DNA of 64,000 nucleotides, taken from positions 1 to 64,000 of the forward strand of contig JAGCDO010000056.1 in the NCBI GenBank assembly GCA_017651265.1. Reading direction: 5' to 3'. A model generated the notes under the pieces. That model searched no databases. It saw nothing but the letters and a program-made list of their open reading frames with translations, and was not told the DNA's origin. Source of the stretch: Prevotella sp. (GTDB taxonomy: Bacteria; Bacteroidota; Bacteroidia; Bacteroidales; Bacteroidaceae). Below, one piece after another: positions 4,933-55,290 of this stretch (positions are counted from its first letter, which is position 1; every line of letters begins with the position of its first letter). Both the position numbers and the translations under genes were made by a program.

Positions 4933-4998
4933 TATACCTAGAGATAGTGAGAATCCATAAATAATTCTGATTTTCTTTTGAGAATCCCCAAAATTGCC

Positions 4999-5069
4999 GT
5001 ACCTTTGGTTAACACCGAAGGTACTTCCGCTCGAGAAATCCAAAGAAAAAGCCATTTTTCTTTGGATTT
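4999..5069 (+). repeat. Two hairpins of the promoter-associated repeat family, metK copy
   Basis: First hairpin: GTACCTTTGG (4999-5008) against CCGAAGGTAC (5015-5024), one mismatch, followed by TTCCGCTCG. Second hairpin: a perfect 15-bp stem at 5036-5050 and 5055-5069 with loop GCCA. The second stem overlaps the -33 element of the metK promoter. The same layout recurs elsewhere in the window. Confidence 0.8.
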
Positions 5070-5092
5070 CTGCTCACTTAGTCGTACCTTTG
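5061..5092 (+). promoter_or_regulatory. metK promoter
   Basis: TTTG at 5061-5064, TACCTTTG at 5085-5092, 20-nt spacer containing GCTCACTTAGTCG. The ATG at 5122 is 29 nt downstream of the -7 box. No SAM riboswitch was recognised in the short leader. Confidence 0.85.
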
Positions 5093-8956: not shown

Positions 8957-10252
8957 ATGAAAAATTTCGTAGAAGAACTTCGCTGGCGTGGAATGCTGGC
9001 ACAGATTATGCCAGGAACAGAAGAACTGCTCCAGAAAGAAATGGTAACAGCCTATTTAGGAACAGATCCCACAGCCGATTCATTACATATTGGTCATCTC
9101 TGCGGCATCATGATGTTGCGTCATCTGCAGCGCTGTGGCCACAGACCCATCATCCTTGTAGGTGGAGCCACAGGTATGATTGGCGACCCTTCAGGAAAAT
9201 CACAGGAGCGAAACCTGCTCAACGATGAAACCTTGCGTCATAACCAGGAGTGCATCAAACAGCAAGTGGCTAAGTTCCTTGATTTTGAGTCGAAGGAACC
9301 GAATGCCGCCATCATGGTGAACAACTACGACTGGATGAAAAATTTTACCTTCCTCGACTTTGCTCGTGAGGTGGGTAAGCACATCACTGTCAATTATATG
9401 ATGGCTAAGGAATCGGTGCAGCAGCGTCTGAATGGTACGGCTCGTGACGGTCTTTCATTCACGGAGTTCACCTATCAGCTCCTGCAGGGATACGATTTCC
9501 TTTATCTCTACCAGCACTATGGGGTGAAGCTGCAGTTAGGTGGTAATGATCAATGGGGTAATATGACCACCGGTACTGAGCTTATCCGTCGTACGTTAGG
9601 TAACGAGGTAGAGACTTTCGCGCTCACCTGTCCGTTGATTACCAAGAGCGACGGTAAGAAGTTCGGTAAGACCGAGAGTGGAAATATCTGGCTCGATCCG
9701 AAGCGTACCACACCGTATAAGTTCTATCAGTTCTGGCTGAATGTAAGTGATGATGATGCTGAACGTTACATCAAGATCTTCACTTCTTTGGAGAAGGATG
9801 TGATTGACGCTTTGGTGGAGGAACACAAGCAGGATCCGGGTCGTAGAATCCTTCAGCGTCGTTTGGCAGAAGAGGTAACCGTAATGGTTCACTCTCGCGA
9901 AGCGCTTGATACGGCTATTGAGGCAAGTAACATCCTCTTCGGCAAGAGTACGAAGGAGAGTCTTCAGAAACTCGATGAGCAGACCTTCCTCGACGTGTTC
10001 GATGGCGTTCCACAGTATGAGATCAGTAAAGAGCAGCTCGGACAGGCTGCCATTGAATTGCTCACAGCCTCTGCTCCTGTCTTCCCCTCAAAGGGTGAGA
10101 TGCGAAAGATGGTGCAAGGTGGTGGCGTGAGTCTGAACAAGGAGAAGCTGACCGATCAGAACAGAATCATCACCACTGATGACCTCATCGATGGTAAATA
10201 TCTGCTGGCTCAGAAAGGAAAGAAGAACTATTTCCTCTTGACAGTGAAGTAA
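8957..10252 (+). CDS. tyrS: Tyrosyl-tRNA synthetase
   Basis: Charges tRNA-Tyr. The 431-aa class I synthetase shows the HIGH box as HIGHLCG near residue 42, the tyrosine/tRNA recognition region [12 protein letters not shown] near 195, the KMSKS-equivalent KFGKTESG near 235 and a C-terminal S4-like RNA-binding segment (about 365-430, [10 protein letters not shown]). It is the last gene of the hemD-rnpA-yidD-tyrS run. Confidence 0.97.
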
Positions 10253-10315
10253 GAATCTTTGTGGAGTGAGGAATGTGGAGTGAGGAGTGAGAATACAAAA
10301 AAATTATATTTTTGT

Positions 10316-10346
10316 TTTGTATTTCGCTCACTTATTCGTACCTTTG
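10316..10346 (+). promoter_or_regulatory. tRNA-Gln promoter
   Basis: TTTG at 10316-10319, TACCTTTG at 10339-10346, 19-nt spacer containing GCTCACTTATTCG. The tRNA 5' end is 15 nt downstream. The region just upstream (from 10291) forms an imperfect AT-rich stem, as in other members of the repeat family. Confidence 0.85.
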
Positions 10347-20988: not shown

Positions 20989-21020
20989 CAAAGGTACGAT
21001 TAAGTGAGCGAAAAACCAAA
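20989..21020 (-). promoter_or_regulatory. Promoter of the RidA-like gene (repeat-family type)
   Basis: Minus strand: TTTG (21020-21017), 20-nt spacer with GCTCACTTAATCG, TACCTTTG (20996-20989). The upstream sequence 21008-21036 forms a stem of the GAAAAAC/GTTTTTC type that contains the -33 element. Confidence 0.85.
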
Positions 21021-21044
21021 TTTATTTGAGTTTTTCCGAACCGA

Positions 21045-21090
21045 TGGAGCAGCGAGAGCCATCATGCTTGCATGTTTGGCCGAGTCGTAA
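21045..21090. ncRNA. Candidate structured element, copy 1
   Basis: Starts TGGAGCAGCGAGAGCCAT and contains the nested hairpin CATGC-TT-GCATG inside GCCA/TGGC. About 80% identical to 24447-24492, with all differences being transitions and three of them compensatory in the inner stem. No protein is encoded. Strand unknown; the second copy lies in the leader of the minus-strand smalltalk gene. Confidence 0.5.
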
Positions 21091-21106
21091 CAGAGGAAAA
21101 CAAAGT

Positions 21107-21308
21107 TAACGTGAGTACCTTCGGCGTAGCCAAAGTACGAATAAACGAGCAAAAGGAAAGTTTACTTTTCTTTTCATTTTCCAGTGAAAGTACCTTCGGC
21201 GAAGCCAAAGGTACGAATAAGTTGAGCTCAGCCAAAGTTACGAATAAGCAACCAAAAAGCGCAAAGGTACGAATAAGTGAGAACAACCAAAGGTACGAAT
21301 AACCGAGC
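21107..21308 (-). repeat. Array of promoter-hairpin repeat units, minus orientation
   Basis: Five to six full or partial units read toward the RidA-like gene. Full hairpin units AGTACCTTCGGC...GCCAAAG(G)TAC lie at about 21114-21138 and 21189-21213. Half units of the form CAAAG(G)TACGAATAAG lie at about 21232, 21261 and 21288. Each half carries TACCTTTG or TAACTTTG on the minus strand. This 540-nt intergenic stretch (21020-21558) has no gene. Confidence 0.75.
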
Positions 21309-21317
21309 GCAAACCCA

Positions 21318-21432
21318 AAAGAGGATGGACTCATCCTCTTTGTGTCCCCCTCCTTTTGGGAGGGGCTAGGGATAGGCTCCTCCTTCATTCCCCTCCCATC
21401 GTAGGGGAGGGGTCCCTGGCAAGGGGGGTGGG
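21318..21432. repeat. Hairpin plus REP-like GC hairpins
   Basis: AAAGAGGATG/CATCCTCTTT stem (21318-21341), then CCCCTCC/GGAGGGG hairpin (21347-21365) with tail CTAGGGATAGGCTCC, and a second CCCCTCCC/GGGAGGGG hairpin (21390-21412) with a GGGGGGTGGGG tail. The first two elements recur in the same order at 24246-24313, on the far side of the BspA-like gene. Confidence 0.75.
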
Positions 21433-24412: not shown

Positions 24413-24446
24413 AAATTTGAAGTTTTTACTTTTAACTTTGAACTTT

Positions 24447-24492
24447 TGGAGCAGCGAGGGCCATTGTACTTGTACATTTGGCTGAGTCGTGA
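24447..24492. ncRNA. Candidate structured element, copy 2 (smalltalk leader)
   Basis: Starts TGGAGCAGCGAGGGCCAT and has the nested hairpin TGTAC-TT-GTACA inside GCCA/TGGC. Compared with 21045-21090, three base pairs of the inner stem changed on both sides. It lies between the HU-like gene and smalltalk, so on the minus strand it would be a leader or intercistronic RNA. Confidence 0.55.
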
Positions 24493-24556
24493 CAAAAGTC
24501 ATAGAACGAAGTGATATAACTTTATGATTACCTTTGTTTTTATGGAGTGCCCTGTC

Positions 24557-32293: not shown

Positions 32294-34463
<2,170 letters not shown>

Positions 34464-52809: not shown

Positions 52810-52840
52810 CAAAGGTACGAATAAGTGAGCAAAGAACAAA
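52810..52840 (-). promoter_or_regulatory. tRNA-Leu promoter (repeat-family type)
   Basis: Minus strand: TTTG (52840-52837), 19-nt spacer with GCTCACTTATTCG, TACCTTTG (52817-52810), 13 nt before the tRNA 5' end. Confidence 0.85.
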
Positions 52841-53000
52841 ATAAAAATAAGAGTTTTTTATTTTTTCTTTCGAACGGGAGTACTTTCGGCGCAGCCAAAG
52901 TACGAAAAATCTGAGTAAGTGAGAAGAAAAAAAGTCATTTTTTTCTCGAACGTGAAGATTTTATTTAATAAGTGAGCAAAATCGAGCAAAATCGAGCAAA
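52841..53000 (-). repeat. Further promoter-hairpin repeat units upstream of tRNA-Leu
   Basis: On the minus strand: AT-rich stem, CCCGTTCG, hairpin GTACTTTGGC/GCCGAAAGTAC (about 52890-52914), CTCACTTACTCAG, a second A/T stem, CACGTTCG, CTCACTTATT and three TTTTGCTCGA copies. Together with manC spacing this fills the gene-free stretch 52800-53120. Confidence 0.75.
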
Positions 53001-55258: not shown

Positions 55259-55290
55259 TTTGCTTTTGTTCCCGCTTATTTGTACCTTTG
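55259..55290 (+). promoter_or_regulatory. Promoter of the HAD-GtrA operon
   Basis: TTTG at 55259-55262, 20-nt spacer with CCCGCTTATTTG, TACCTTTG at 55283-55290. The ATG at 55297 follows after 6 nt, so the transcript should be nearly leaderless. Confidence 0.8.

Follow-up and report, generated by a model that had tools for sequence, protein, structure and literature searches.

A promoter-carrying palindromic repeat of rumen Prevotella suggests an element that would hop into promoter -7 boxes and remake the box on landing

The attC sites of integrons have paired outer arms, an unpaired internal loop and a variable stem, their structure is kept more than their sequence, and they occur in head-to-tail arrays. 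The dispersed repeat described here, which we term E1, may be likened to attC in its outer arms, internal loop, variable stem and head-to-tail arrays, and is unlike it in that no gene cassettes were seen, the box sequences are others, and every unit contains a promoter. Putative mobile promoters of prokaryotes have reportedly been recognised by the identity of sequences upstream of genes, with neither a structure nor a target site defined; E1 resembles them in the apparent spreading of a promoter as a short repeat and has both a defined structure and a presumed target site. REPIN/REP sequences, mobilised by RAYT, are characterised in excerpts of two studies (PMC8049555, PMC3733652) as short dispersed palindromes in the order of 100 copies per genome, with conserved ends and a variable centre, and E1 is like the REPINs of these excerpts in being a dispersed palindrome with a single-stranded DNA hairpin, a specific tetranucleotide beside the hairpin and a unit free of any enzyme. 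Unlike REPINs, E1 carries a full promoter, nearly always points to genes, apparently lands in -7 boxes and has a self-complementary variable centre, and, unlike the REPIN-RAYT pairing, it resides in a genome in which a Y1 transposase was not found. The BrickBuilt MITE of Porphyromonas gingivalis, according to its abstract, comprises a 23-nt minisatellite within a longer MITE and is present in 19 copies (PMC4596501); both it and E1 are intergenic dispersed repeats of Bacteroidetes with tandem units, promoter activity being reported for BrickBuilt and predicted from sequence for E1, and the BrickBuilt abstract does not mention insertion into a -7 box or a covarying stem, which are features of E1 (PMC4596501). 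No earlier description of the E1 repeat was found in searches of open-licence PubMed Central literature.

The window, that is, the whole stretch of 64,000 nucleotides analysed here, lies in contig C55 of a 3.16-Mb genome (69 contigs, 94% complete) of an uncultured rumen Prevotella, whose closest named relatives among the matches are likewise uncultured rumen Prevotella MAGs, including RUG047, Tb.RUG.501, RGIG7613 and RUG11392. From an alignment of 17 full E1 units of this genome, the order in the promoter direction was TTTG (the end of the upstream -7 box), GCTTCGCC, GAAGGTAC, TTTCGCTCG, a variable left arm, a loop, a right arm containing the -33 TTTG, a spacer such as GCTCGCTTATTCG, and TACCTTTG. 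Units were gathered by patterns that fix the conserved flanks, leaving free the variable dinucleotide and the stem only, and orthologous copies from three genomes were counted separately unless stated to be distinct. A dispersed unit measured 72-86 nt (median 83; 71 distinct units). The start after TTTG was GCTTCGCC in 22 of 46 distinct units and ACTTCGTC in 10; together with the last G of the upstream TTTG either one forms a short hairpin, and the difference between them is a compensatory change from G-C to A-T. Further in, the left outer arm GAAnnTAC pairs with the -7 box TAnnTTTG (as GTAnnTTTG), and TTTCGCTCG, the commonest left loop strand (23 of 71 distinct units), lies opposite CTCACTTATTC in a conserved internal loop, while the -33 TTTG sits within the right arm of the variable inner stem. 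Being small and dispersed, with inverted ends and no coding sequence, E1 has these properties in common with MITEs. The initial annotation had named a 13-nt spacer core by which to search for the family. Its exact spacer GCTCACTTATTCG does occur, as one form among many (2 of 71 distinct units, the commonest being GCTCGCTTATTCG with 11 of 71); the core CTTATTCGTANNTTTG greatly exceeds chance, being found 30 times in the 3.16-Mb genome and its reversed control 0 times, and the 13-mer alone, searched in the window with up to 3 mismatches, was mildly enriched (27 matches against 16.1 expected, a count of 27 being reached in 2 of 100 shuffles).

Before metK (identified by Pfam), an 85-bp E1 unit with a 17-bp inner and a 7-bp outer stem occupies positions 5008-5092 of the + strand. 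It directly follows the native, non-repeat metK promoter TTTTCTTTTG..GCCGTACCTTTG (4971-5007), the presumed landing site, which is present as the same sequence in two relatives (G376 and G094); the -7 box of this promoter, TACCTTTG, lies at 5000-5007, and a new TACCTTTG at 5085-5092 closes the unit. Two units precede the esterase gene on the + strand (32314-32395 and 32396-32470), the stem of the second differing from that of the first and its outer arm GAAATTAC pairing with the -7 box TAATTTTG, and one precedes tRNA-Leu on the - strand (52810-52895). The framework that had been proposed as common to six genes is present at metK, the RidA-like gene, the esterase and tRNA-Leu; the + strand promoter of tRNA-Gln (10292-10346) is palindromic, with spacer GCTCACTTATTCG and TACCTTTG, and lacks the CGCTCG left half, and the HAD gene promoter (55259-55290, + strand), which had been called a weaker copy, has a related spacer and no stem. 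Short repeats of the GTGGAGTGAGGAGTG and CTCCTCCTTCC types flank several promoters (window ~10250-10290; L007, L009 and L104).

The array before the RidA-like gene (PF01042) runs on the - strand from 21315 to 20989, with all boxes directed toward the gene, and its size agrees with the five or six full or partial units originally described: five TAnnTTTG boxes (first base at 21295, 21269, 21240, 21213 and 20996) and a degenerate TACTTTG at 21131-21137. In its compact part (21206-21315, - strand) four -7 boxes are 26-29 bp apart with little space for stems, and because the TTTG of one box lies 18-21 nt before the next, it could act as the -33 element of its neighbour. A 75-bp unit (21131-21205, - strand) absent from G376 follows, and the last unit, adjoining the gene (20989-21130, - strand), holds a nested foreign repeat in its left internal loop, a palindrome of ~69 nt and of the E3 type (21039-21107, - strand) that is also absent from G376. 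Within this array, 142 bp (21189-21330) are 100% identical in G376 (L032), whose RidA-like gene is 91% identical to that of the window, as if recently exchanged. In G094 (L033), the window's esterase gene and RidA-like gene are divergent neighbours with a common two-way palindromic promoter; in the window the same two genes are 11 kb apart, and 574 of the first 600 bases of the esterase gene are identical in G094. The same arrangement in G513 (L034) seemingly had units added outward on both sides.

That the stem varies between copies yet stays complementary, as had been noted from the window, was confirmed. In the 17 units of the window's own genome, pairing of the inner stem was 10.8 for a unit's own arms compared to 6.6 for mismatched arms (0 of 100,000 permutations as good), and in 69 distinct units of three genomes the values were 11.6 and 7.1 (0 of 20,000 permutations). 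In the outer stem, the dinucleotides of GAAnnTAC and TAnnTTTG were complementary in 60 of 78 units, against a mean of 31 and a maximum of 45 under permutation, and none of 20,000 shuffles reached 60 (two of 80 units with a box one base short are left out). Among 69 distinct units the figure was 52 (permutation mean 25.5, maximum 40). RNAalifold recovered the outer stem together with a portion of the inner one, and two-sided changes were kept in 10 of 19 pairs. A -7 dinucleotide unlike that of the upstream box was present in 12 of 46 distinct units, and in these the left arm fitted the unit's own box 11 times and the upstream box never; since the left arm follows the unit's own box, the right -7 box would travel with the unit and the upstream box would be the landing site. 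Folded as single-stranded DNA, the metK unit formed the 7-bp outer stem, internal loop and 17-bp inner stem with z = -5.46, and the values were -3.02 and -4.27 for the two esterase units, -2.84 for tRNA-Leu, -5.04 for tRNA-Gln and -0.09 for the HAD copy; elsewhere in the genome, L030 (-6.7) and L017 (-2.7) folded well, and L001 (-1.75) and the queC unit (-0.36) poorly. Accordingly, z was -2.67 or lower in 7 of 10 folded units or copies, two of the 10 were no better than shuffles, and L001 was no better than an ordinary promoter, the two ordinary promoters folded having z = -1.95 and -0.25. As the fold values are mixed and an ordinary promoter reaches -1.95, the argument for structure leans on covariation more than on fold energy. 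The repeat and its covariation are certain.

The units have the character of promoters. TTTG stands 19-20 nt before the -7 box in 70 of 71 distinct units, which fits the Bacteroidetes -33/-7 promoter. A same-strand ATG lay within 250 bp of the unit in 69 of 76 units (61 of them within 50 bp; four of 80 units, less than 500 bases from the end of a stretch, are not in this count), compared to 25 of 76 for an ATG in the reverse direction and 617 of 1500 for random positions, a lenient control since positions within genes were counted. The tRNA-Leu unit is one of the seven units without a nearby start codon. The genes behind the units, among them metK, tRNAs, the esterase gene, the QueC gene and the RidA-like gene, are unrelated, and the E1 promoters are presumably active.

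Outside the window, the exact core was detected in 71 of 120 genomes of the genus, including the window's own, at 1 to 64 copies, a genome without an exact-core hit possibly still holding variant units. Across the order it was present in 20 of 198 genomes, again including the window's own; apart from that genome, more than two copies were found only in G144 (15), G261 (6) and G232 (7), and single hits in the order are on a par with the reversed control. A covariance model placed E1 at 88-132 sites among the matches listed in each of seven Prevotella genomes (the window's own and six relatives) and at 13 in G144; because at most 150 candidates were scored and the matches may include both strands of one palindrome, ~100 per genome gives the order of magnitude only. 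In G144, a member of a different family within the order, there are tandem units that share this plan, their boxes being TATCTTTG and their outer arms TTAGATAC. Near-identical stems at unlinked loci (at most 2 differences in at least 34 bases) were found as 7 pairs over three genomes, not all of them independent. In G059, a lipoprotein-like gene (start MKRHIIYIYAL) is present three times (L086, L094 and L102), each time behind an E1 array; two of the copies stop after 35 and 51 residues and the third has 498.

Comparison of orthologous sites revealed occupied and empty promoters. At metK, G376 and G094 have a plain promoter and read ...AAAATTGCCGTACCTTTG|CACCCTAATA where the window has exactly 85 bp extra, with 98% identity upstream and 95 and 94% on the metK side; the two flank matches overlap by 10 bases, CGTACCTTTG. 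In other words, the promoter of both relatives is TTTTCTTTTGAGAATCCCCAAAATTGCCG-TACCTTTG-CACCC, and that of the window has 85 bp after TACCTTTG which again end in TACCTTTG. Among other relatives, G513 carries another unit immediately behind GCCGTACTTTG; units different again are present in G460 and G411. Before queC (L016, PF06508), the window's own genome has a unit behind a native TATCTTTG, and G376 and G094 have a homologous promoter with TACCTTTG and no unit, the empty site being less exact than at metK, with ~15-20 bases around the boundary differing. At a third locus, a promoter of the repeat type (L122 at 19620), an 82-bp unit that G376 and G513 share is missing from G094. The units at all three loci are bracketed by direct repeats of 8-10 bp. 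At metK and queC the more distant G513, G460 and G411 carry units with other stems, so that the empty sites of G376 and G094 may reflect exact loss, and the site at L122 position 19620 may likewise be empty in G094 through loss. A recent gain in the window's genome would agree with the perfect inner stem of the metK unit and with the survival of an intact native promoter next to it, though neither is proof.

Arrays differed by one unit at the RidA-like gene (75 bp), at L122 position 6371 (69 bp, E1-like), at L116 position 12241, between L120 and L137, and at L144 position 6708. Simple tandem duplication, which fits L002, L010 and L018, was rejected as the sole source of arrays, neighbouring stems being different in L014, L023, L029 and L030; because an added unit's stem can differ from its neighbour's, array growth is not always local duplication. 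At some orthologous promoters entire units, with both arms, were replaced in place: at L110 position 10060 one stem is common to the window's genome and G094 and another is present in G376, with flanks 94-98% identical, three species have three different stems at L114 position 17655, both arms differ between species at L144 position 6708 and at L127, and the stem of the RidA promoter differs among G094, G411 and the window's genome. Of 70 orthologous comparisons, which drew on 91 of 141 matches and count every pair once in each direction, 30 showed no difference in length. Because the loci for the exchange and array cases were selected, they give no rate of turnover.

We consider it probable that E1 is a non-autonomous mobile element which carries a promoter, lands 3' of the TTTG of a -7 box and rebuilds that box, exact loss being also allowed. 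One strand would fold into the outer stem, the internal loop (TTTCGCTCG opposite CTCACTTATTC) and the inner stem holding the -33 TTTG, and the unit would insert immediately 3' of TTTG in an existing -7 box, its own TAnnTTTG closing the unit. Because the unit ends in its own -7 box, the gene would keep a -33/-7 promoter at the same distance, the old promoter being displaced ~75-85 bp upstream, and with neither the -33/-7 spacing nor the distance to the gene altered, insertion into an essential promoter, that of metK for example, need not be harmful. Later units would insert after the new -7 box and so give rise to head-to-tail arrays. We infer that E1 is gained by transposition and that it moves as folded single-stranded DNA. 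Direct repeats with a palindrome between them are a classical substrate for precise excision by slippage, and the 8-10 bp TAnnTTTG repeats flanking the palindrome suit such excision, which would account for exact losses of units. With TAnnTTTG on both sides of the unit, a target-site duplication is hard to tell from the end that the unit would bring with it: the left arm tracks the unit's own -7 box (11 of 12), so the right TAnnTTTG need not be a duplication of the target. The initial annotation had offered a small palindromic mobile repeat that spreads promoters as one of two explanations, and this is partly supported by the exact occupied and empty sites, the near-identical unlinked units and the patchy copy number, transposition and its enzyme being putative.

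Several of these observations would also fit an account without a transposase, which we regard as unlikely. In this account, E1 units are old promoter palindromes that undergo slippage or precise excision between TAnnTTTG copies and are exchanged by ectopic gene conversion via flanks of ~20-33 bp. The conserved flanks on either side of a variable stem, at ~100 model matches per genome, the replacement of entire units at one and the same site, the 8-10 bp direct repeats that bracket units (palindrome-stimulated excision being textbook knowledge) and the units that more distant relatives carry at metK and queC are all consistent with it; gene conversion, however, cannot seed the first unit at the repeat-free metK promoter, if that unit is a gain. 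The second explanation of the initial annotation, a shared regulator or cruciform, which would make the palindrome a selected regulatory site for a regulon of promoters, appears quite improbable. Strong stem covariation, a conserved internal loop and spacer, a plan shared with G144, of another family, and a position nearly always before genes are what such a site would show, yet the genes are unrelated, nested insertions interrupt some copies, some orthologous promoters of close relatives have no palindrome, and tandem units exist, and a regulator or cruciform would explain the structure and not the exact insertion after a -7 box, the exchange of whole units or the differing stems of neighbours. 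Rfam reported only two tRNAs in the window at the gathering score and, in a permissive search of five loci, nine sub-gathering hits in two loci (eight to miRNA models and one to isrL), so that membership of an RNA family was rejected, none in these searches fitting E1. It is hardly credible that E1 acts as RNA, as a leader or terminator within transcripts that start upstream, for, despite hairpins with T-rich right arms and upstream array units that would transcribe downstream ones, the paired region takes in the -33 and -7 boxes, which are outside the unit's own transcript. At L074:1122-1252 of the window's genome (contig C19), ~130 nt are hit on both strands by unrelated sub-gathering miRNA models and probably form one long hairpin.

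For the mobile element that we favour, a mobilising enzyme was sought by profile search. The Y1 transposase (PF01797) had 0 matches in the window's own genome (94% complete) and in G376, G094, G460, G411 and G032. It was matched in 7 of 16 genomes searched, of which G513 (weakly), G059, G055, G081 and G144 carry the repeat and G004 and G016 are both without an exact-core hit. Membership of the REP/RAYT system was rejected for the window's genome, which, like five other repeat-rich genomes, yielded no Y1 transposase. The GTAG or CGTC tag of REP/REPIN was not found at the ends of E1, whose starts are mostly GCTTCGCC or ACTTCGTC. Nor was an autonomous long form with a gene between E1 ends found in 1.2 Mb of three genomes: of 91 left ends, all but 8 were matched to a right end within 130 nt, and none of the 8 encloses a gene, seven being units with a nested E2, E3 or E4 repeat and one an ordinary unit (L121 at 9988).

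The nested repeats are small palindromes in their own right. Over 1.2 Mb, E2 (~63 bp, TAAAATCTTCACGTTCG..CTCACTTANTCAGATTTT) occupies six places, inside E1-type spacers at CTTA^TTCG, and G376 lacks two of these copies; its presence shifts the -7 box away from its -33 box. One of the places is AAATAAAATCTTCACGTTCG..CTCACTTACTCAGATTTTT at 52905-52966 of the window (- strand), adjoining the tRNA-Leu unit, and the others are L122 (~5550 and ~6476), L121, L156 and L117. E3 and E4, with GACTC..GCTGCTCC around a palindrome, were found by a loose pattern in 14 places in 1.2 Mb, some within E1 and others outside it (window 21039-21107 and ~24440-24500; L104, L106, L121, L122, L131, L133, L139, L149, L155, L156 and L162). 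E3 occupies the left loop in two units, the last one of the RidA array and the one before queC in G513; E4 follows the -33 TTTG within units and ends in TTTG, and the loci compared included no site empty for E4 alone. A wider reading, which we put forward tentatively and consider rather doubtful, is that a class of structured mobile elements targets promoters, landing 3' of the -7 TTTG (E4 perhaps after the -33 TTTG) and restoring the split box and a working promoter with its own end, in the way that elements inserting into tRNA genes restore the tRNA; the left end, complementary to the element's own -7 box, would aid recognition of the site, E2 and E3 would land inside E1, and a putative single-strand recombinase would move them.

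If the favoured reading of E1 is true, a repeat would reach ~100 copies in a compact genome, and stand before essential genes, by rebuilding the promoter that it entered. Promoter turnover in a dominant rumen genus would then be directly measurable, and there would be an enzyme to seek. Comparisons of promoters between Prevotella species may, in that case, compare swapped units and not diverged ones.
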